Of a stretch of DNA of 34,105 nucleotides, positions 3,903 to 30,340 are shown piece after piece (position 1 is the first letter of the stretch; each line of letters starts with the position of its first letter). This DNA comes from an uncultured Clostridia bacterium. Its GTDB lineage: Bacteria > Bacillota > Clostridia > TANB77 > CAG-508. The stretch covers positions 1 to 34,105 of the forward strand of contig CALXEU010000053.1 of assembly GCA_944387395.1 (NCBI GenBank). The letters run 5' to 3'. The notes under the pieces were generated by a model. The model was not told where the DNA came from, did no database searches, and saw nothing but the letters and a program-made list of their open reading frames with translations. A program made the translations under genes and the position numbers.

Positions 3903-4027
3903 GGTTGAAAAATAATTACAATTTTGACGTTGTCAAACTTCATTTGAAATTTAATTGAGCGTACATGGAGTACGCCTCATAAATTTCAAACTCATTCTCC
4001 TAGTCAAAATTTAATTCTTTTTCAACC
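3903..4027. repeat. Intergenic palindromic repeat, copy A (complete)
   Basis: A 125-bp imperfect palindrome lies between rnc and the radical SAM gene. Outer arms GGTTGAAAAATAATT... and ...AATTCTTTTTCAACC pair almost fully; the inner arms pair through TTTGAAATTTA/TAAATTTCAAA; the tip is GCGTAC-ATGGA-GTACGC (3959-3975). A closely related copy lies at 7685-7808, a 30-bp core-deleted copy at 28213-28242 and a left-end remnant at 11227-11242. No open reading frame and no convincing target-site duplication. It could be a REP- or MITE-like sequence or a structured leader RNA. Confidence 0.85.
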
Positions 4028-4080
4028 AGATTTGTGACTAGAAAGAAATGTAACATAAAAATGAAAATCATAAAGCAATA

Positions 4081-4104
4081 GTTATATAAATGGTTTTATA
4101 TAAC
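4081..4104 (+). promoter_or_regulatory. Perfect hairpin directly upstream of the radical SAM gene's ribosome binding site
   Basis: A 10-bp perfect stem (4081-4090 with 4095-4104) with a 4-nt loop is followed after one base by AAAGGAGG (4106-4113) and a TTG start at 4122. There is no T-tract, so it is not an intrinsic terminator. It could stabilise the mRNA 5' end or be an operator. Confidence 0.4.
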
Positions 4105-4121
4105 GAAAGGAGGAACCAATA

Positions 4122-5153
4122 TTGAAGAAAGAATATATAATTCCAATATTTGTACCACATTTAGGATGTCCAAAATGTTGCACATTTTGCAATCAAAAAA
4201 CAATAAGTGGAGAGCAAAAACAAGTTAGCGCTAAAGATGTAAGAGATACAATTGAATATTATCTAAAAAACTTTAAATATGACAATAGATACATTGAAGT
4301 AGCTTTTTTTGGAGGAAGTTTTACAGCAATAGAAATAGAAAAGCAAAAAGAACTATTAGAGGCAGTACAACCATATATAAAACAGAAAAAAGTAAATAGT
4401 ATTAGACTTTCTACAAGACCTGATGCCATAAATCTAGAAATATTAAAAATGTTAAAACATTATAAAGTAAAAACAATTGAACTTGGAGTACAATCTTCCA
4501 ATAACTATATATTAGCAAGATGCAAAAGAGGTCATAGTTTTGAAGATGTAAAAAAAGCATCAAGATTAATTAGATTATTTGGCTTTAATTTAGGACATCA
4601 GATGATGGTGGGACTTCCTGATAGCACAGAAAAAGATGATATTCAAACGGCTAAAGATTTAATAAAATTAAAACCTAAAATGGTAAGAATATATCCTGTT
4701 TTAGTAATAAGTGGAACAGAATTAGAACAAGAGTATAAAAAAGATGAATTTTTGCCACTTACAGTTGAACAAGCAGTAGAAAGAAGCAAAGAAATAGTAA
4801 ATTTATTTAACAAAAAACATATTCAAGTAATAAGAGTTGGGCTTCAAAACACAGATACCATAACAGATATTTCACAAAAACAAAGTGAAGTTGTTGCAGG
4901 ACCATATCATCCAGCCTTTGGGCAATTAGTAGATGATGGTCTATGGTATGATAAAATTGTTCATAAAATAAAAAAGATAAATGCTAATATAACAAAGGTA
5001 GAGATAGAAGCAAATCCTTATGATGTAAATAACATAGTAGGACATAAAAAAGAAAACATACATAGACTAAAAGATACATATGCTCTAATTTCAACAGTTA
5101 GAGCAAACGAACATATAAAAAAAGGAAATTTTAAAATTAATATATGTTCTTAA
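4122..5153 (+). CDS. Elp3-like radical SAM protein (rnc-linked family)
   Basis: 343 residues from a TTG start with AAAGGAGG 8 bp upstream; no ATG is available in frame. The N-terminal 'HLGCPKCCTFCNQ' gives the radical SAM CX3CX2C cluster (C16, C20, C23), followed by 'AFFGGSFTAIE' (the glycine-rich SAM motif) and 'SIRLSTRPDAI'. The protein corresponds to the radical SAM half of Elp3; no acetyltransferase domain follows the region ending near 'GPYHPAFGQLV'. Relatives encoded next to rnc and smc are common in clostridia and are often annotated as elongator protein 3 or B12-independent radical SAM proteins. A tRNA-modification role is plausible but unproven. smc, the usual next gene, is absent here. 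Confidence 0.85.
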   Translation: MKKEYIIPIFVPHLGCPKCCTFCNQKTISGEQKQVSAKDVRDTIEYYLKNFKYDNRYIEVAFFGGSFTAIEIEKQKELLEAVQPYIKQKKVNSIRLSTRPDAINLEILKMLKHYKVKTIELGVQSSNNYILARCKRGHSFEDVKKASRLIRLFGFNLGHQMMVGLPDSTEKDDIQTAKDLIKLKPKMVRIYPVLVISGTELEQEYKKDEFLPLTVEQAVERSKEIVNLFNKKHIQVIRVGLQNTDTITDISQKQSEVVAGPYHPAFGQLVDDGLWYDKIVHKIKKINANITKVEIEANPYDVNNIVGHKKENIHRLKDTYALISTVRANEHIKKGNFKINICS

Positions 5154-5166
5154 ATAACATAAATAA

Positions 5167-5203
5167 AAGTTCAGACTAAACAATTTAACAGTCTGGACTT
5201 TTT
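5167..5203 (+). terminator. Intrinsic terminator after the radical SAM gene
   Basis: An 11-bp stem with one G-T pair (5167-5177 with 5190-5200), a 12-nt loop and a T-tract ending at 5203, starting 14 bp after the stop codon. Confidence 0.85.
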
Positions 5204-5292
5204 CTAAATATAGATACTCTCAAACCAAATTTGCATAAAATTGCTAAATTTAGTTAATACTGAAAATAATTAATCTAAAAGATAGGAGTTTT

Positions 5293-6210
5293 ATGGAAAA
5301 TAAAGAAAGCAAAAAACAAATGCAAATGAGAAAAAACATAAGTAAAATATGTAACAATGAAGAATTAAAAACCAAAAAGTTTATAAAAGAATATTTTATA
5401 ATAACAACAGGAGCATTAATAATGGCAATAGGAGTATCTCTTTTCTTATTACCCAATGAACTATCAACAGGAGGATTTTCTGGATTAGGAACAATAGTTT
5501 ATTATGTACTAAAATTTCCACTTGGAGCTACAACACTAGTATTAAATATACCTTTACTATTAATTGCATATTTTAGAATAAGCAAAGAGTTATTTTTAAA
5601 ATCTATATATGGAACATTTGCATTATCATTTTTTATAGATATTTTAGACAGGTTACAGCCCATAATTCATGATAGATTTCTAGGTTGTATTTACGGTGGA
5701 ATCTTAATGGGTGTTGGGACCGCAATAATACTAAAAGTAAACGGATCAACAGGAGGTTCGGATTTACTATCATATGTAATTAAATCATTTAAACCACAAT
5801 ATAAAAGTGGAACATTGATTTTAATAATAGATGCTATTATAATTGCATTAAATGTATTTGTATTCAAGGCAATAGATATAGGATTGTACTCTGCAATTGC
5901 AATATTCTTAATGAGTAAAATGATAGATTTAATATTCGAAGGAATAAATTTTACAAAAGTTCTTCTTATAATTTCACCAGAGTATAAAAAAATTGCAGAA
6001 ACAATTGGTAAAAATATAGATAGAGGAAGTACTGCACTTTACTCCAAAGGTATGTATACAAATGAAGATAAAATGACATTACTATGTGTTGGTTCAAGAA
6101 ATGAAGCATATAATATACAATATATAGCAAAACAAATAGATAAAAATGCATTTATAATAATAATGAATGCAAGAGAAGTTTTGGGTAAAGGATTTAAAAA
6201 GCAACTCTAG
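5293..6210 (+). CDS. YitT-family membrane protein with C-terminal DUF2179 domain
   Basis: 305 residues. A charged cytoplasmic N-terminus (about 1-32) precedes five to six hydrophobic segments between about 33 and 215, including 'LLPNELSTGGFSGLGTIVYY' and 'VNGSTGGSDLL', both typical of YitT/YczE-type proteins. The C-terminal soluble DUF2179-like domain (about 222-300) contains 'DRGSTALYSKGMYT' and ends with 'FIIIMNAREVLGKGF'. Located in the cytoplasmic membrane. Members are conserved in Firmicutes; transport function is suspected but the substrate is unknown. TAGGAG precedes the ATG. An L,D-transpeptidase gene starts 34 bp downstream, so the two are probably co-transcribed with ogg. Confidence 0.88.
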   Translation: MENKESKKQMQMRKNISKICNNEELKTKKFIKEYFIITTGALIMAIGVSLFLLPNELSTGGFSGLGTIVYYVLKFPLGATTLVLNIPLLLIAYFRISKELFLKSIYGTFALSFFIDILDRLQPIIHDRFLGCIYGGILMGVGTAIILKVNGSTGGSDLLSYVIKSFKPQYKSGTLILIIDAIIIALNVFVFKAIDIGLYSAIAIFLMSKMIDLIFEGINFTKVLLIISPEYKKIAETIGKNIDRGSTALYSKGMYTNEDKMTLLCVGSRNEAYNIQYIAKQIDKNAFIIIMNAREVLGKGFKKQL

Positions 6211-6244
6211 AATTAAAATAAAAAAAGATTGGAGAGCAAATTAT

Positions 6245-6805
6245 ATGCTTATAAAAGCTAGATATACTAAAAATAGTAAAGGAATACTAGAATTTTTTGA
6301 GAATACCAATCAACAAGATAAAACTAATTATAATAAATTATTCCAAACTGAAGCTTTTTTTGGCAAAAACGGAGTAACCACAAACAAAAAAGAAGGAGAT
6401 GGAAAAACTCCTCTTGGAGTATTTAAATTAGGAGTCGCATTAGGTACACATAAAAAAGAAGAAATAAGAGAAAATCCTTATTATATGGAAATAAACGAAA
6501 ATTTATATTGGGTTGATGATTTGACATCAAATTTCTATAATCAATTAGTTGATATAACAAAAGTTAAAAAGGATTGGAAAAGTGCAGAACATTTAATAGA
6601 ATATCCTAAAGAATATGAATACATGATTGAAATAAAAACAAATTCAAACAACATTCCTGGAAATGGAAGTGCAATATTCCTTCATTGTAGTTCAAACAAA
6701 CCGACTGCAGGATGCATTGCAATAGATAAAGAAAAAATGGAAGAAGTATTGAAAAAAATAGACAGAAATGCAATAATAGTCATTGAAAGGAATGAGATAA
6801 AATAA
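6245..6805 (+). CDS. L,D-transpeptidase (YkuD domain) family protein
   Basis: 186 residues from ATG 6245, which has GGAGA at 6231-6235; a longer upstream frame would overlap the YitT gene and has no good ribosome binding site. The YkuD signature is clear: 'EGDGKTPLGVFKL' near residues 50-62, and catalytic 'HCSSNKPTAGCIAI' with H147 and nucleophile C157. YkuD enzymes form 3-3 peptidoglycan cross-links or attach proteins to the wall, outside the membrane. No signal peptide or membrane segment is visible (it starts MLIKARYTK), which is unusual for an enzyme acting on the wall. Its TAA overlaps the ATG of ogg, implying translational coupling. Confidence 0.88.
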   Translation: MLIKARYTKNSKGILEFFENTNQQDKTNYNKLFQTEAFFGKNGVTTNKKEGDGKTPLGVFKLGVALGTHKKEEIRENPYYMEINENLYWVDDLTSNFYNQLVDITKVKKDWKSAEHLIEYPKEYEYMIEIKTNSNNIPGNGSAIFLHCSSNKPTAGCIAIDKEKMEEVLKKIDRNAIIVIERNEIK

Positions 6806-7683
6806 TGGAACAAAAATATGTACTAAATAATTGTAAATCATTTAGACTAAGAGATGTATTTGAATGTGGGCAATGTTTTAGATGGAATAAACAATTAGAT
6901 GGAAGTTATACAGGAATTTTTGGTAAAAATGTATTAAATGTTACTGAAGAAAAAGATGATAATGGTTATAAGATTACATTTTGCGGTATATGTGATGGAG
7001 ACATAGAACAAATATGTAATTTCTATTTTGATTTAGAAAGAAATTACGAAAAAATCAAGCAAGACCTTTCTAAAATTGACAACAATTTAAAAGAAGCAAT
7101 AGAATATGGCTCTGGAATAAGGATACTAAACCAAGACCTATGGGAAATGATTATATCATTTATAATATCAGCAAATAACAACATTCCTAGAATAAAAGGC
7201 ATAATAGACAGAATGTCTAAAAAATATGGACAAGAGATAAATTTTAGAGGAGAGAGGTTTTACACGTTTCCAACTTCAAAAGAACTTTCAAAGGCAACAG
7301 AAAAGGATTTACGAGAACTAGGAGCAGGTTTTAGAGATAAATACATATTTGAAACTACAAAAATGATAAATAATGGAGAGATTAATTTAGAAGAACTTCA
7401 AAAAGAAAAAGAGACCAATGTAATTAGAAATAAACTTTTAACACTATGTGGTGTAGGCCCAAAAGTTGCAGATTGTATATTATTATTTTCTAGTTTAAAG
7501 CGTTTTGACGTATTTCCAATAGATGTGTGGGTTAGAAGAGTAATAAATGATTTATATATTCACAATGAGGTAGAAGCAAAAGTAGACAAAAAACAGATAG
7601 AAAACTTAGCAAAAGAGAAATTTGGAGACTTAGAAGGAATTGCACAACAGTATTTATTTTTTTATAGAAGAGAAAGGGACTAA
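6805..7683 (+). CDS. ogg: 8-oxoguanine DNA glycosylase/AP lyase
   Basis: 292 residues. N-terminal OGG_N-like domain with 'DVFECGQCFRWN' (about 17-28), then the helix-hairpin-helix-GPD domain: 'ISANNNIPRIKGII' (121-134), 'LCGVGPKVADCI' with catalytic lysine K220, and 'VFPIDVWVRR' with D240. These match the OGG1 type (hOGG1 SNNNIARI, K249, D268). It removes 8-oxoguanine from DNA and cuts the abasic site. The start overlaps the L,D-transpeptidase stop by one base. The stop codon is followed directly by palindromic repeat copy B. With AddB and the uracil glycosylase further on, several repair genes lie within 7 kb. Confidence 0.95.
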   Translation: MEQKYVLNNCKSFRLRDVFECGQCFRWNKQLDGSYTGIFGKNVLNVTEEKDDNGYKITFCGICDGDIEQICNFYFDLERNYEKIKQDLSKIDNNLKEAIEYGSGIRILNQDLWEMIISFIISANNNIPRIKGIIDRMSKKYGQEINFRGERFYTFPTSKELSKATEKDLRELGAGFRDKYIFETTKMINNGEINLEELQKEKETNVIRNKLLTLCGVGPKVADCILLFSSLKRFDVFPIDVWVRRVINDLYIHNEVEAKVDKKQIENLAKEKFGDLEGIAQQYLFFYRRERD

Positions 7684-7684
7684 A

Positions 7685-7808
7685 GGTTGAAAAATAATTA
7701 CAATTTTGGCGGTGTCAAACTTCATTTAAAATTTAATCAACGTACACAAAGTACGCCTCATAAATTTTAAATTCATTTTCCTTGCCAAAATTTAATTCTT
7801 TTCCAACC
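7685..7808. repeat. Intergenic palindromic repeat, copy B (complete)
   Basis: A 124-bp palindrome begins two bases after the ogg stop codon. It matches copy A over its length. Two differences are compensated across the stem: TTTTGAC/GTCAAAA in A is TTTTGGC/GCCAAAA in B, and TTTGAAATTTA/TAAATTTCAAA in A is TTTAAAATTTA/TAAATTTTAAA in B. The tip is CGTAC-ACAAA-GTACG. The flank after the right end (CCAGAT then an AGAAAGGAATG box) also resembles copy A. Confidence 0.85.
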
Positions 7809-7843
7809 AGATATATATGCTTTTAGAAAGGAATGATTGAGAA

Positions 7844-10800
7844 ATGGGTATGCAGATAATTTATGGTAAAAGCGGAACTGGAAAATCTAGCTATATTTTT
7901 GAGCAAATAAGCAAAAACATAAATAATGGAAGAAAAAAATACATAATAACTCCAGAACAATTTTCATTTACAGCAGAAAAAGAATTGTTAAATGCAATTA
8001 TAAAGAATCAAAGTACAACTGCTGCAATAAATGCAGAGGTTCTAACATTTAACAGAATGGCACATAGAGTATCACAAGAGGTTGGTGGAAGTAATAAAAC
8101 TACACTTTCAAACTGTGGTAAAGCCATGCTTCTTTATAGCATACTCTCAAACAAGAAAAACAATCTAAAGTTTTTAGGAAAATCTACAAACAATGTAGAT
8201 ATGGTATTAACACAAATAACAGAACTAAAAAAACACGGAGTAAGTGTAGAGAATCTGCAAGACTTGAAAGAAAATATAGAACAAAAATACCTAGCAAGCA
8301 AGCTAAATGATATTTATACAGTTTATAGTTTGTTTCAAGAAAAGATTTCTAATAACTACATAGATGAGAATGATTCATTAACAGTGCTTGAAAGTCAATT
8401 AGACAAGACAAATATGTTTGACAACACAGAAATATACATAGATGAATTTGTAGGATTTACAAAACAAGAATATCTTATAATTGCAAAACTATTAAAAGTA
8501 GCTAACAAAGTTACAATAGCTGTTACGACTGACAGCCTAGAAGAAAATAAACATCCTGCAAACGATATATTTTATAGTAATAAAGAGACTGTAAGAAAAC
8601 TTTTAAAAAAAGCAGAAGAAGTTAATATAAAAATAGAAGAACCAATATATTTAGATGAATTAAAAAGATTTAAATCACAAGAGTTAGTACATATAGAAAG
8701 TAATTTATACAGTTTTCCTTATAAGAAATATAATGAAAAAGAAATAAAAAATTTACATTTATTTTTAGCAAATAATCAATATTCAGAAATAGAAGAAGTA
8801 GCTAAAAATATTATTAAATTAGTAAAAAAAGAAAATTATCGATATAGAGATATATCTGTAATTACCAAAAACTTAGATACATATTCAAACTTGTGTAAAG
8901 CAATTTTTAATAAATATAAAATTCCAGTTTATATAGATGAAAAAAGAGATTTAAGCCAAAATATTTTAGTTAAATATTTAATAGCTATATTAGATATTTT
9001 TGCAAGTAATTGGGCATATGATAGTGTATTTAATTATATAAAATCAGGATTTTTAGATATACAAGAAGAAGATATTTATTTATTAGAAAACTATGCTCTA
9101 AAATGGGATATAAAAGGAAGTAAATGGTATAAAGAGGACTGGAATTTTTACGATAGTGAGGAAATAATCCAAGAAAAAATAGACCACATAAATTTGTTAA
9201 GAAGAAATGTAACAAAACCACTATTAAAATTAAAAGAAAATTTATCAGGAAATAAAACAGCTAAACAAATTTCAGAAAATCTCTATAATTTTCTTATACA
9301 AAATAGAATAAATGAAATACTTGAAAAGAAAATACAGAATCTAAACGATTTAGGAAAGGTTAATGTTGCATCTGAATACGAGACCAGCTGGAAAGTTGTA
9401 ATGCAAGTATTAGACGAAATAGTGTTAGTATTTGGAGAGGATAATATAACATTTGAAAATTACATGCAAATTCTAAAAATGGGACTAGGAGAAAGTAAAT
9501 TAGGAACAATTCCAATGTCTCAAGACGAAGTAACTGTTGGAGATGTGGATAGATCTAGGAGTCATAAAGTAAAAGCAGTATTTATTATAGGACTAAACGA
9601 TGGGATATTTCCATCTGTAAATAAAGCAGAAGGATTTTTAAATGATGATGATAGAGAAAAAATACTGCAATATGGAATAGAACTTGCAAAAGGCACTATA
9701 GAAAGAATTTATGAAGACAACTTTAATATATACAAGGCATTTACAACTGCAGAAGAAAAAATATATTTATCTTATTCATCATCAGATATGGAAGGAAAAT
9801 CGTTAAGACCATCTACACTTGTTACAAGAATAAAGAAAATGTTTACAGAACTTAAAGAAGAAAGCGATATAGTTAATAGGAAATCAGAAATAGTTACGCA
9901 GCAGAATATTTTTGAGGAATTACTAATTAATTTACGAGAGTTTAGAGATGGCAAGGAAATTGATCCAATCTGGTTTAATATATACAATATATATATAGAA
10001 AATTCAAAATGGAAAGATAAATTAGAGATGGCAATAAAAGCTCTAAATTATGATAATACACCAGAAAAAATAACCAAAGAAAATATAGACAAGTTATATG
10101 GTGATACATTAAAAACAAGTGTATCTAAATTGGAACAATACGCTAATTGTGCATTTTCATACTATTTAAAATACGGATTAAAACTTGCAGATAAAGAAAC
10201 TCTAAAAGTTGAGACTATAGATACAGGAACATTTATGCATGATGTAATAGATAACTTTTTTGCTAAATTAGAAGAAAAACAAATAAATATTAGAGAGTTA
10301 AACGATGAAGAAATAGAAAACATAGTTTCTGAAATAGTAGAAGAAAAACTAAATCTAAACAGAAACTATATATTTAAAGCCACTGCTAGATATAGAATCT
10401 TAGCTCAAAGATTAAAAAAGGTTGTTACTTTAAGCATAAAATATATAGTTCAAACTTTAAAACAAAGTGAATTTGAAGTATTTGGACATGAAGTGGAATT
10501 TGGTGGAAAGGGTAAATTTCCTCCAATAATGGTAACTACAGATTCTGGTAAGAAAGTAGAAATTACAGGAAAAATAGATAGAGTAGATATTTTAAAACAA
10601 CAGGATGGAACATATGTAAGAGTAATAGATTACAAATCATCAATTCATAGTGTGGACTTAAATAAAGTAATATCTGGTCTTCAAATTCAATTATTAACTT
10701 ACTTAAATGAAACTTGTAAAGTGGAAGATTTTATACCAGCTGGAGTATTATATTTTTCGTTATTAGATAAAACAATTTCTACAAATAAAAAGTTGACTAA

Positions 10801-13983: not shown

Positions 13984-15414
13984 ATGCATATAGGAACGAA
14001 AAAATATACCGACATAACTTATGACGAAATTCCAAAATATATAAAAACTGGACTTAAAAGAAAAGATGGAACTACAATAAAGTGTTTTAATTACAAATAT
14101 GAACTAGGGTATAGAAAAGAATTTTCAATATTAAAAGAAGATAAAACTGAGGACATAATAACAAATGAAAGTAAAATTAAAGAATCATATAAAAAGCACC
14201 AAATTCATGATAAGTTATTTAAAGATATATTTTCAGATAAAAATGAGGCAGTAAAATTTATAAACAAATATTTAAATTTACAAATACCATTAAAACAAGA
14301 GCAAATAGAAGCATATTCCACTGAATTTATAACAGAAGAATATTATAAAGAAAATGCAGATATTGTTTATAAAATAAAAGATAAAGATATATTTTTTTTA
14401 ATAGAGCATCAAAGTAAAATAGATAGAACAATGCCGTTTAGAATGAATGAATATGCAAGCTTAATAATAAGAAAAGCAATAGATAAAAGTAAAATGAGAC
14501 AAAAAGATTATAAGTTCCCACTAGTAATAAAAATTGTTTTATATACAGGGCATAAAAAATGGAATGCTGAACTTGAATTAAAAAATATACAGGAGGTGTT
14601 GACAGGGTATAAACCAAGTTTAGAAGATTATAATATAATAGATGTAAACAACTATAGAGATGAAGATTTATTAAATGACAACCTATTAGTATCAAAGGGA
14701 ATGTATGTAGAAACAATAAAAAATAAACAAGAAGTTGTTCAAAAGCTAGAAAAAATGATAAAAAGCGTAAAAGAACAGGATATACCTGGAGGAGCAAGAT
14801 TTATAGGAGTAATAGAAAAATATGTACTAGAGATAAAGAATAAAAATCTAAATTTAGATGAAGAAAAGGAAGGAGGAAAAATAAGAATGTCATTTTTAGA
14901 ATTGTTACAAGAATACCAAGAAGACTTATATAATGATACACAGAAAATGAAAAAAATGAAAATAAAACTAGCAAATAAATCTGCTGAATTAGAAAACAAA
15001 TATATAGAGATATCAAAGAAATCAGAAGAAGTAGCAAAGAAATCAGAAGAGGTAGCAAAGAAATCAGAAGAGGTAGCAAAGAAATCAGAAGAGGTAGCAA
15101 AGAAATCAGAAGAGGTAGCAAAGAAATCAGAAGAGGTAGCAAAGAAATCAGAAGAGGTAGCAAAGAAATTAGAAAAAGTAGAAAGAAGATCAGAAGAAGT
15201 AGAGATAAAATTAAAAAAAATTGAAAATGATAAAGACTATATAGCTAAAGAAAGAGAAAAATTAACAAGAGAGAAAAATACGATTATTAAAAAAGAAGAA
15301 AATACTATAAAGGCATTAATTAAAAGTGGCTTATCAAATGACGAAATATCAAAATTACTAGAAATAAGCCAATTAAGAGTAGAAAATATTGCTAATAAGT
15401 TCAACAATACATAA
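13984..15414 (+). CDS. Rpn-family recombination-promoting nuclease / PD-(D/E)XK transposase-like protein
   Basis: 476 residues. After an unfamiliar N-terminus of about 70 residues comes the Rpn nuclease core: 'HDKLFKDIFSDKNEAVKFIN' (about 75-94), D126 in 'NADIVY', and E141 and Q143 in 'FLIEHQSK', the D-ExQ active site; then 'PLVIKIVLYTG'. A long charged helix follows, including seven KKSEEVA heptads plus one degenerate copy (345-400). The C-terminus 'IKSGLSNDEISKLLEI' resembles the small helical tail of this family. Relatives cut DNA and promote recombination in E. coli; some are annotated as transposases. A TAA in frame at 13954 makes ATG 13984 the only ATG start, but its GAAGGA touches the ATG with no spacing. 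Lone gene flanked by its own promoters. Confidence 0.85.
   Translation: MHIGTKKYTDITYDEIPKYIKTGLKRKDGTTIKCFNYKYELGYRKEFSILKEDKTEDIITNESKIKESYKKHQIHDKLFKDIFSDKNEAVKFINKYLNLQIPLKQEQIEAYSTEFITEEYYKENADIVYKIKDKDIFFLIEHQSKIDRTMPFRMNEYASLIIRKAIDKSKMRQKDYKFPLVIKIVLYTGHKKWNAELELKNIQEVLTGYKPSLEDYNIIDVNNYRDEDLLNDNLLVSKGMYVETIKNKQEVVQKLEKMIKSVKEQDIPGGARFIGVIEKYVLEIKNKNLNLDEEKEGGKIRMSFLELLQEYQEDLYNDTQKMKKMKIKLANKSAELENKYIEISKKSEEVAKKSEEVAKKSEEVAKKSEEVAKKSEEVAKKSEEVAKKSEEVAKKLEKVERRSEEVEIKLKKIENDKDYIAKEREKLTREKNTIIKKEENTIKALIKSGLSNDEISKLLEISQLRVENIANKFNNT
15016..15183 (+). repeat. 21-bp tandem repeat (minisatellite) inside the Rpn gene
   Basis: Seven 21-bp units (15016-15162) encode KKSEEVA; the first differs from the others by one synonymous base (GAA for GAG) and units 2-7 are identical. 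A degenerate eighth unit runs to 15183. Because the unit is a whole number of codons, changes in copy number keep the frame and only alter coiled-coil length. Confidence 0.95.
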
Positions 15415-28186: not shown

Positions 28187-28212
28187 AAAGACTATTAAAA
28201 AGAAGGAAGAAA

Positions 28213-28242
28213 GGTTGAAAAATAATTAATTCTTTTTCAACC
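28213..28242. repeat. Short palindromic repeat (copy C), core-deleted, in the topA leader
   Basis: Thirty bases join the left 15 bases and right 15 bases of the outer arms of copies A and B, forming a near-perfect hairpin without the roughly 95-bp interior. The flank (TTTATGCC then AGAGAGGAATG) again resembles that of copies A and B. No T-tract follows that would make it a clear terminator. Confidence 0.8.
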
Positions 28243-28273
28243 ATATTTATGCCTCAAGAGAGGAATGTGAAAA

Positions 28274-30340
28274 ATGGCAGATAAATTAATAATAGTTGAA
28301 TCGCCCGCAAAGGCAAATACAATAAAAAAATTTTTAGGTGGAAGTACAAAAGTAGTTGCTTCTATGGGACATATAAGAGACTTACCTAAGTCAAAAATTG
28401 GAGTGGATATAGAACACGACTTTGAACCAGAATATATTAATATTAGAGGAAAAGGAAATTTAATAAAATCTCTAAAAAAATATGCAAAAGCAGCTAAAAA
28501 AGTGTATCTTGCAACTGACCCTGATAGAGAAGGAGAAGCAATTGCATGGCACTTAGCACATATACTAGAAATTCCGGAAGATAGTGTATGTAGAGTTACA
28601 TTTAACGAAATAACAAAGGAAACTGTACAAGAATCAATAAAAAAACCAAGAAAAATAGATATGAATCTAACTAATGCACAACAAGCAAGAAGAGTATTAG
28701 ATAGAATAGTAGGATATAAAATAAGTCCATTATTATGGAAAAAAGTAAAGCCAGGATTATCAGCAGGAAGAGTTCAGTCAGTCGCTGTAAAATTAATAGT
28801 AGATAGAGAAAATGAAATTAGAAATTTCATACCAGAAGAATACTGGAACATTTATGCAAAACTTTTAGATGAAAAGTCAAAAAAAGAATTTGAAGCTAGA
28901 TTTTACGGAAAAGACGGAAAAAAACAAGAATTACACAAAAAAGAAGAAGTAGATGAAATTCTAAATAATATAAAAGATGGTAAATATATAGTAACAAATG
29001 TAAAAACAGGGGAAAAGAAAAGAACTCCAGCTCCTCCATTTACAACAAGTACAATGCAACAAGAAGCATCAAGAAAGTTAGGATTCACATTAAAGAAAAC
29101 AATGTCAGTTGCACAAGGTCTATATGAAGGAGTTAAAATACCAGAAAAAGGCAGTGTAGGATTAATTACATACATGAGAACAGACTCTACAAGAATTTCA
29201 GAAGAAGCAAGAGCTGCTGCTAAAGAGCAAATAATAAATACTTATGGAAGTTCATATTATGAGAATAGATATTACAAAACAAGTAAAGAAGCACAAGATG
29301 CCCATGAAGGTATAAGACCTACATATATATATTTAACACCAGAAAGTATAAAAGAAAGCTTAACAACAGACCAATATAAATTATATAAATTAATTTACAA
29401 CAGATTTATAGCAAGTCAGATGACAGCAGCAATCTATGACACAATAAATGTAGATATAGATGTAAATAAATATAACTTTAAAGCAAGTGGACAAAATTTG
29501 AAGTTTAAAGGATTTATGACATTATATATAGAAGGTAATGATGAAAACAGTACAGAAGACGAAGAGACTTCAATTCCTGCATTAGAAGAAAAACAAGAAG
29601 TAAAGCAAATATCTTTAACTCCAAAACAGAGTTTCACGGAACCACCTGCAAGATATACAGAAGCAAGTCTGGTAAAAGAACTAGAAGCAAGAGGAATAGG
29701 AAGACCAAGTACTTACTCGCCAACAATTACTACAATTTTAGAAAGAAGATATATAGAAAAAGAAAAAAAACAACTTGTACCAACAGAACTAGGAGAAGTG
29801 GTAAACAAGCTATTAATAGATAATTTTTCAGATGTAGTAAATGAAGAATTTACAGCTAAAATTGAGAGTGAGTTTGACAGTGTTGCTGAGGGAAAAGAAG
29901 AATGGAAACAAATTCTAAGAGACTTTTATCCTAAATTTGAAAATGAGTTAGAAAAAGTAGATAAAGAGTTAGAACATGTTGAACTTAAAGAAGAAGTCTC
30001 AGATGTTCCATGTGATAAATGTGGGAGAATGATGGTTGTAAAAATGAGTAGATATGGTAAATTTTTAGCATGTCCAGGCTACCCAGAGTGTAAAAATGTA
30101 AAACCTTTTGTAATTACAATAGAGGTTCCATGTCCAGTATGTGGAGGAAAAGTTCAAGTTAGAAAAACAAAAAGAGGAAAAAATTTTTATATTTGTGAAA
30201 ACAACCCTAAATCTTGTAATTATATTTCTTGGAATAAACCAAAACCTGGAGAAAAGTGGAGTCCAGAGGAAATTAAAAATACGGAAACTAAAAAAACTAA
30301 AAGAAAAAAGACAACTAAAAAAAAGACAAGTAAAAAATAA
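28274..30340 (+). CDS. topA: DNA topoisomerase I
   Basis: 688 residues, normal bacterial length. The TOPRIM domain begins 'KLIIVESPAKANTIKKFL' and includes 'YLATDPDREGEAIAWHLA'; the active-site tyrosine is Y300 in 'ITYMRTDSTRIS'. Two C-terminal Cys4 zinc ribbons follow ('CDKCGRMMVVKM...CPGYPEC' and 'CPVCGGKVQVRK...CENNPKSC'), then a Lys/Thr-rich tail. It relaxes negative supercoils. GAGAGGAATG provides the ribosome binding site before ATG 28274. Single gene between its own consensus promoter and a terminator. A probably spurious small frame at 28032-28229 overlaps its promoter. Confidence 0.98.
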   Translation: MADKLIIVESPAKANTIKKFLGGSTKVVASMGHIRDLPKSKIGVDIEHDFEPEYINIRGKGNLIKSLKKYAKAAKKVYLATDPDREGEAIAWHLAHILEIPEDSVCRVTFNEITKETVQESIKKPRKIDMNLTNAQQARRVLDRIVGYKISPLLWKKVKPGLSAGRVQSVAVKLIVDRENEIRNFIPEEYWNIYAKLLDEKSKKEFEARFYGKDGKKQELHKKEEVDEILNNIKDGKYIVTNVKTGEKKRTPAPPFTTSTMQQEASRKLGFTLKKTMSVAQGLYEGVKIPEKGSVGLITYMRTDSTRISEEARAAAKEQIINTYGSSYYENRYYKTSKEAQDAHEGIRPTYIYLTPESIKESLTTDQYKLYKLIYNRFIASQMTAAIYDTINVDIDVNKYNFKASGQNLKFKGFMTLYIEGNDENSTEDEETSIPALEEKQEVKQISLTPKQSFTEPPARYTEASLVKELEARGIGRPSTYSPTITTILERRYIEKEKKQLVPTELGEVVNKLLIDNFSDVVNEEFTAKIESEFDSVAEGKEEWKQILRDFYPKFENELEKVDKELEHVELKEEVSDVPCDKCGRMMVVKMSRYGKFLACPGYPECKNVKPFVITIEVPCPVCGGKVQVRKTKRGKNFYICENNPKSCNYISWNKPKPGEKWSPEEIKNTETKKTKRKKTTKKKTSKK

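Follow-up and report, generated by a model that had tools for sequence, protein, structure and literature searches.

A probably mobile palindromic element with a minus-strand fold, located between Shine-Dalgarno sequence and start codon in an uncultured Clostridia bacterium

The closest described counterparts of the element analyzed here are the ERIC sequences of enterobacteria, also called IRU or RU-1, which resemble it in size (127 bp), in forming an imperfect palindrome and in occurring as intergenic copies, and which have TA at their termini (PMC2229807). REP and BIME sequences, with their RAYT, are also small, palindromic, strand-specific and non-autonomous, but their GTAG/CGTC tag, their size of 20-40 bp and their Y1 transposase (PMC3733652) are not shared by the element. 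Two further systems can be likened to it by description, not by sequence. The Rickettsia palindromic elements (RPE) are palindromes of some 150 bp whose entry into genes is not destructive (PMC10969869); they insert in frame inside coding genes, whereas the present element lies before the start codon. The Chunjie MITE of Geobacter uraniireducens is a repeated intergenic element of 178-235 bp, inserted according to the title of its description without disturbing an operon (PMC10969869). We found no description of an element of the present kind outside enterobacteria in the open-access literature, which does not prove its absence, and no mobiliser named for ERIC in the same literature.

Copies of the element in the window and its genome

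The window, namely the whole stretch of 34,105 nucleotides taken from contig CALXEU010000053.1 of an uncultured Clostridia bacterium (assembly GCA_944387395.1), contains two complete copies of the element on the plus strand, which is the sense strand of the genes: copy A of 125 bp (positions 3903-4027) and copy B of 124 bp (7685-7808). The fold conserved in both is that of the minus strand, on which the covariance model R1, introduced below, matches positions 3918-4011 and 7700-7792, respectively. A first-pass annotation of this DNA had recognized both palindromes as folding end to end, and this is borne out by comparison with dinucleotide shuffles (RNA z scores of -9.2 and -7.1 on the plus strand, -9.3 and -7.8 on the minus strand). 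RNA of the minus strand folds 7-12 kcal/mol better than that of the plus strand, and minus-strand shuffles also fold better. The placement of the copies directly after a stop codon is accurate for copy B, which starts 1 nt after the stop, but not for copy A, which starts 26 nt after it. Moreover, the window contains a third copy that had been overlooked as such, copy C (28213-28242, plus strand), in which the core of the palindrome is deleted and only the outer arms are left (GGTTGAAAAATAATTAATTCTTTTTCAACC).

A DNA search of the host genome, a draft of 1.24 Mb in 86 contigs, retrieved 16 full-length copies together with several core-deleted or shortened ones, about 20 in all; the absence of further copies, which the first-pass annotation had named as grounds for refutation, is thereby disproved. 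The differences between copies A and B that had been regarded as compensatory are real, since the paired positions co-vary across the 16 full copies: in minus-strand letters, the outer-stem pair is A-U in eight, G-C in the other eight and broken in none, while the inner-stem pair is G-C in seven, U-A in six, A-U in one, G-U in one and broken in one. Such covariation supports the earlier proposal that structure rather than sequence is conserved. The element is made of inverted repeats and codes for no protein; a conserved leader peptide starting from the TTG at the beginning of the element was considered and rejected, its frame being broken at codon 6 in four copies of the genome. In Rfam 15, no family matches the element at the gathering score, be it the copies of the window or those of the tested relatives.

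The palindrome, taken initially for the whole element, is only part of the conserved unit, which runs for about 33 nt beyond its end in a tail (AGATTTGTGCCTAGAAAGGAATGTGAACAAAA and variants) that reaches the start codon and carries a strong Shine-Dalgarno sequence, hereafter abbreviated as SD. The tail of copy B (7809-7843, plus strand; TTTAGAAAGGAATG) lies immediately 5' of the addB start codon at 7844, and that of copy C (28243-28273, plus strand; ATATTTATGCCTCAAGAGAGGAATGTGAAAA) is followed by the topA ATG at 28274. Copy A is an exception to this layout: its tail (AGATTTGTGACTAGAAAGAAATG..., 4028-4060, plus strand), which also bears an SD, leads into an open reading frame of six codons (4061-4081, MKIIKQ and stop) and then into a radical SAM gene with its own SD. 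Tails are alike, and in a single orientation, before unrelated genes that we take from their sequence to be disA, dut, scpA, a HIT protein gene, rnhA, addB, rpiA, pflA, cdaA, xseA, a pspA-like gene and others; the tail is therefore a part of the element rather than of the genes. Elsewhere in the window, the open reading frame at 13984-15414, presumably encoding a PD-(D/E)XK nuclease of the Rpn type, has a tandem repeat of seven residues (KKSEEVA) in its C-terminal half.

Replacement of the Shine-Dalgarno sequence

The probable original SD of addB (AGAAAGGG, 7671-7678, plus strand) lies upstream of the inserted copy B, and that of topA (AAGAAGGAAG, 28200-28209, plus strand) lies to the left of copy C, the latter being assigned by analogy with the left flanks of other copies. 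Left flanks of 18 nt were examined for 42 copies from three genomes: pairing with the anti-SD reaches -5 kcal/mol or better in 81% of them, versus 16% of random windows (p 1e-19). The left SD is weak in copy A, in the copies L007 (before metK), L012 and L016 and in a few copies of the sister genome G005; extra sequence separates the tail from the gene in copy A, L007 and L010. Orthologues in sister species show empty sites with the plain order of SD, spacer and start codon, as found for xseA (ACAGGAGAAACA-ATG), rpiA (GGAGGAAAAGTTAA-ATG), hit, scpA, rnhA, dut, abc, disA and others. At fmt, G005 also has a copy at the same place.

The left SD and the empty orthologous sites together indicate that the element sits between the old SD and the start codon, for which it supplies a replacement. 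This replacement is shown as anatomy, and from it we infer an effect on translation. An insertion directly before the start codon would be expected to silence the gene, and the SD of the tail would then rescue translation, so that such insertions could survive, with a net effect on the expression of the downstream gene that would be modest. Transcription includes the element upstream of many genes, so that an effect on their expression is conceivable. The form with its own SD in the tail, inserted in one orientation between old SD and start codon, occurs in the host genus and one related genus; named uncultured gut Clostridia bins close to the host carry the same form with the tail. Other repeats were also seen: a second family (GCATACTGAGGCTGTAACA...TTAACAGCCTCAGCA-like; loci L061, L089 and L076) is present in the bacterial family of the host, in one case nested within an element copy, and a short repeat around GTGTTTTTGGGGACA lies upstream of dut and rnhA in genomes G004 and G005 (L101, L102 and L111).

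Relatives across phyla and the strand of the fold

A search with the core pattern TCAACGTAC-N3-6-GTACGCCTC retrieved at least 119 stretches from Nitrospira, Desulfobacterota, Rokubacteria, Acidobacteria, Treponema and many Clostridia; relatives of the element are found in Nitrospirota, Desulfobacterota, Rokubacteria, Acidobacteria and Spirochaetes besides the phylum of the host. The invariance of the core among these matches partly follows from the construction of the pattern; beyond the searched core, the columns CGT(T) and CCT.G, spaced at fixed distances, show no or almost no variation, while the stems share little sequence. On the minus strand the architecture comprises an outer stem, an internal loop of AAGGC/AACGC, an inner stem of nearly fixed length, a GAGG/TTGA loop and a CGTAC hairpin. 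This inner architecture is conserved across phyla, whereas the ends differ. Covariation is strong in 35 copies from outside Clostridia, including a few from other Bacillota: the score was 0.506 versus 0.140 for shuffled alignments (reached by 0 of 500), with slid versions scoring at most 0.111.

The covariance model R1, trained on those 35 non-Clostridial copies alone, matches both complete copies of the window over its full length and on the minus strand (copy B, 56.4 bits, E 1.3e-14; copy A, 38.0 bits, E 6.5e-9). It also matches 15 places in the host genome, 17 of the 38 relatives searched and 29 of the 249 genomes sampled from the host phylum (own genome counted in both sets), these genomes being drafts and many of them metagenome bins. 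Four R1 matches lie between phage-structural-like genes in a contig of a viral collection (L148); the core is altered yet still largely paired in three of the four, and these three were missed by the search pattern. Nitrospira loci (e.g. L226, L179 and L178) have about 90 nt more after the palindrome, ending in an apparent second terminal arm (CAGCCTGCTAG), and look like a longer form of the element. In Treponema vincentii, the Rfam TD-2 RNA is found at L188:5799-5888, close to a copy of the element (5628-5719).

Isolated mismatches in the stems, counted with an aligner restricted to Watson-Crick pairs, are strongly biased on the gene-sense strand: the ratio of A.C to G.T is 28:0 in the family of the host, 20:4 in other Clostridia and 56:13 in other phyla. 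Copies are not independent, and clustering, which lowers this dependence without removing it, leaves 65 unique events of A.C versus 17 of G.T and 52 of T.C versus 7 of A.G. Mismatches serving as internal control are balanced (G.G and C.C, 11:11; A.A and T.T, 6:6), and the bias appears in inner and outer stems alike when their variable parts are counted apart. Read on the minus strand, the A.C and T.C mismatches of the sense strand become G.U(T) wobbles and G.A pairs. Palindrome correction at the DNA level or neutral drift alone would make G.T and A.C equally common on a given strand, while a mutation bias linked to transcription fails to explain the asymmetry because in other phyla the element lies in mixed orientations with respect to genes. 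The minus strand is thus the one with better pairing and, as shown statistically, the one on which the fold is kept, antisense to the genes. This strand-specific conservation could reflect a function unrelated to mobility.

The comparison with ERIC was carried out on seven loci from E. coli, Klebsiella, Lelliottia and Rahnella, using R1 and a broader covariance model, R2, neither of which includes ERIC. With filters off, all seven copies are matched in register and on the same strand by both models, the register match being the best hit of each locus (R1, 9.9-27.4 bits; R2, 6.4-28.6 bits; best E about 1e-6); only four to five of these matches are significant alone, and the weakest (9.9 and 6.4 bits) is not. 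When speed filters are applied, R1 recovers three ERIC loci from a set of eight, one member of which is a 40-kb stretch of E. coli, and R2 recovers none. ERIC presents its motifs in the same succession and on the same strand as the element (AAGGC, GAG-hairpin-TGA, AACGC), but its core is one base shorter on each side, which explains the low scores (6-29 bits). Conversely, the ERIC copies that we read have no 3' tail with an SD, unlike the element of the host genome. With its imperfect palindrome of 124-125 bp in 16 full copies, this element agrees with the ERIC type of about 127 bp and many intergenic copies; however, its tail-bearing copies end in GG...CC without the consistent TA of ERIC termini, and it is therefore filed as a member of a wider superfamily rather than as an ERIC element proper. 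From these sequence comparisons, the element and ERIC are most likely distant relatives within the same superfamily, convergence instead of common descent being a less likely alternative.

Mobility, target sites and possible mobilisers

Genome G153 contains twelve near-identical copies with sharp ends, most of them flanked by AT-rich target duplications of about 5 bp (TTTAA, TACTA, ATATA, TTAAA). Of the twelve copies in genomes G226 and G098, nine lie between direct repeats that are specific to the copy and consist of, or include, a hairpin resembling a terminator; the right-hand repeat retains its U-tract in most. Control scores between different copies are generally low, with a median of 7, but rise as high as 32 since the tandem arrays include sequence of the element, and so the argument rests on the identity of the repeats as hairpins, recognized on reading them. 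Loci L391, L394 and L397 of these genomes are tandem arrays of terminator hairpin and element, as if each insertion had duplicated the hairpin again. An inverted-repeat target is also used by IS1272, which replaces the repeat without duplication (PMC5678879), whereas the hairpin is duplicated in G226 and G098. For the SD-type copies of the host genome, comparison by eye of left flanks with the right ends of tails revealed no consistent target duplication.

Considering the repeated copies, the sites that are empty in orthologues of sister species and the near-identical copies with duplications in G153, it is very likely that we are dealing with a non-autonomous, MITE-like mobile element of conserved structure belonging to a widespread superfamily. 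A MITE-like sequence was among the interpretations originally offered for the two palindromes, and it is the one that the data favor. A mobilising factor might recognize the minus strand in its folded state, whether this is single-stranded DNA or RNA, a step that we regard as having about equal chances of being right or wrong.

The main competitor is an ordinary MITE of the DDE type, in which the terminal repeats alone matter, an insertion sequence moves the element in trans and the long palindrome is a by-product. Inverted repeats and the short target duplications in G153 fit this reading, as do the IS1182-type transposases present in five of the seven copy-rich hosts examined outside the order of the host; yet the transposases of those five hosts have no ends matching the element, neither an autonomous insertion sequence nor any transposase with matching ends was found in G153, and PF13751 has no match in the seven own-order genomes searched. 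Since inner architecture is conserved across phyla while ends differ, and strand asymmetry affects both inner and outer stems, we consider a DDE-type MITE rather unlikely. Unlikely, too, is that a transcript of the minus strand acts as a structured RNA, either antisense or small, and that the element is spread or kept through the benefit of this RNA to itself or to the host. G.U and G.A on the minus strand suit RNA as well as DNA, the better folding of minus-strand RNA agrees with it (though shuffles share this property) and several tandem G.A pairs, which are common in structured RNA, appear in the alignment; but compact copies with sharp ends leave little room for a promoter, transcription of the minus strand would need starts inside many unrelated genes, and the Rfam search mentioned above gave no match.

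The sense strand offers a still weaker case. A 5' leader RNA regulating the downstream genes, as had been suggested earlier, would account for the leader position, the fixed orientation, the conserved SD and the stable sense-strand hairpin. However, the downstream genes are unrelated, their orthologues live without the element, orientation to genes is mixed in other phyla and the fold is better kept on the opposite strand, with A.C and U.C mismatches on the sense strand against G.U and G.A on the antisense strand. The latter pairs being far commoner on the antisense strand, the element is not primarily a sense leader RNA, and we consider this reading improbable. The same strand evidence, unrelated genes and element-free orthologues speak against a stabiliser of transcript ends as the reason for the conserved fold. 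Least probable of all, and indeed very improbable, is a REP/BIME-type element moved by a RAYT (Y1 HUH transposase), even if the element is palindromic, repeated and folded in a strand-specific way: PF01797 (Y1_Tnp) has no match in the host genome or in G022 but is present in genomes free of the element (e.g. G002, G012 and G013), the Y1 genes of relatives are not adjacent to elements, and there is no tagged unit of 20-40 bp (cf. PMC3733652). REP in the strict sense, another of the initial suggestions, thus differs from the element in size and anatomy besides its transposase.

Returning to a mobile element with a folded minus strand, we tentatively propose, with somewhat less than even confidence, that ERIC and the elements of multiple phyla may form one ancient superfamily, whose single-stranded fold of the minus strand would be recognized by an undescribed mobiliser. 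Its targets would be lineage-specific (the start-codon side of the SD, a terminator hairpin or an AT-rich site), and the insertion would restore the gene signal that it hits. Insertion between SD and start codon by an element carrying a replacement SD would be an unusual, non-lethal way for mobile DNA to enter at the translation start of essential genes. ERIC has been used in bacterial typing for decades; if it is a branch of a multi-phylum superfamily with a strand-specific fold, the search for its mobiliser can use comparative genomics across phyla.
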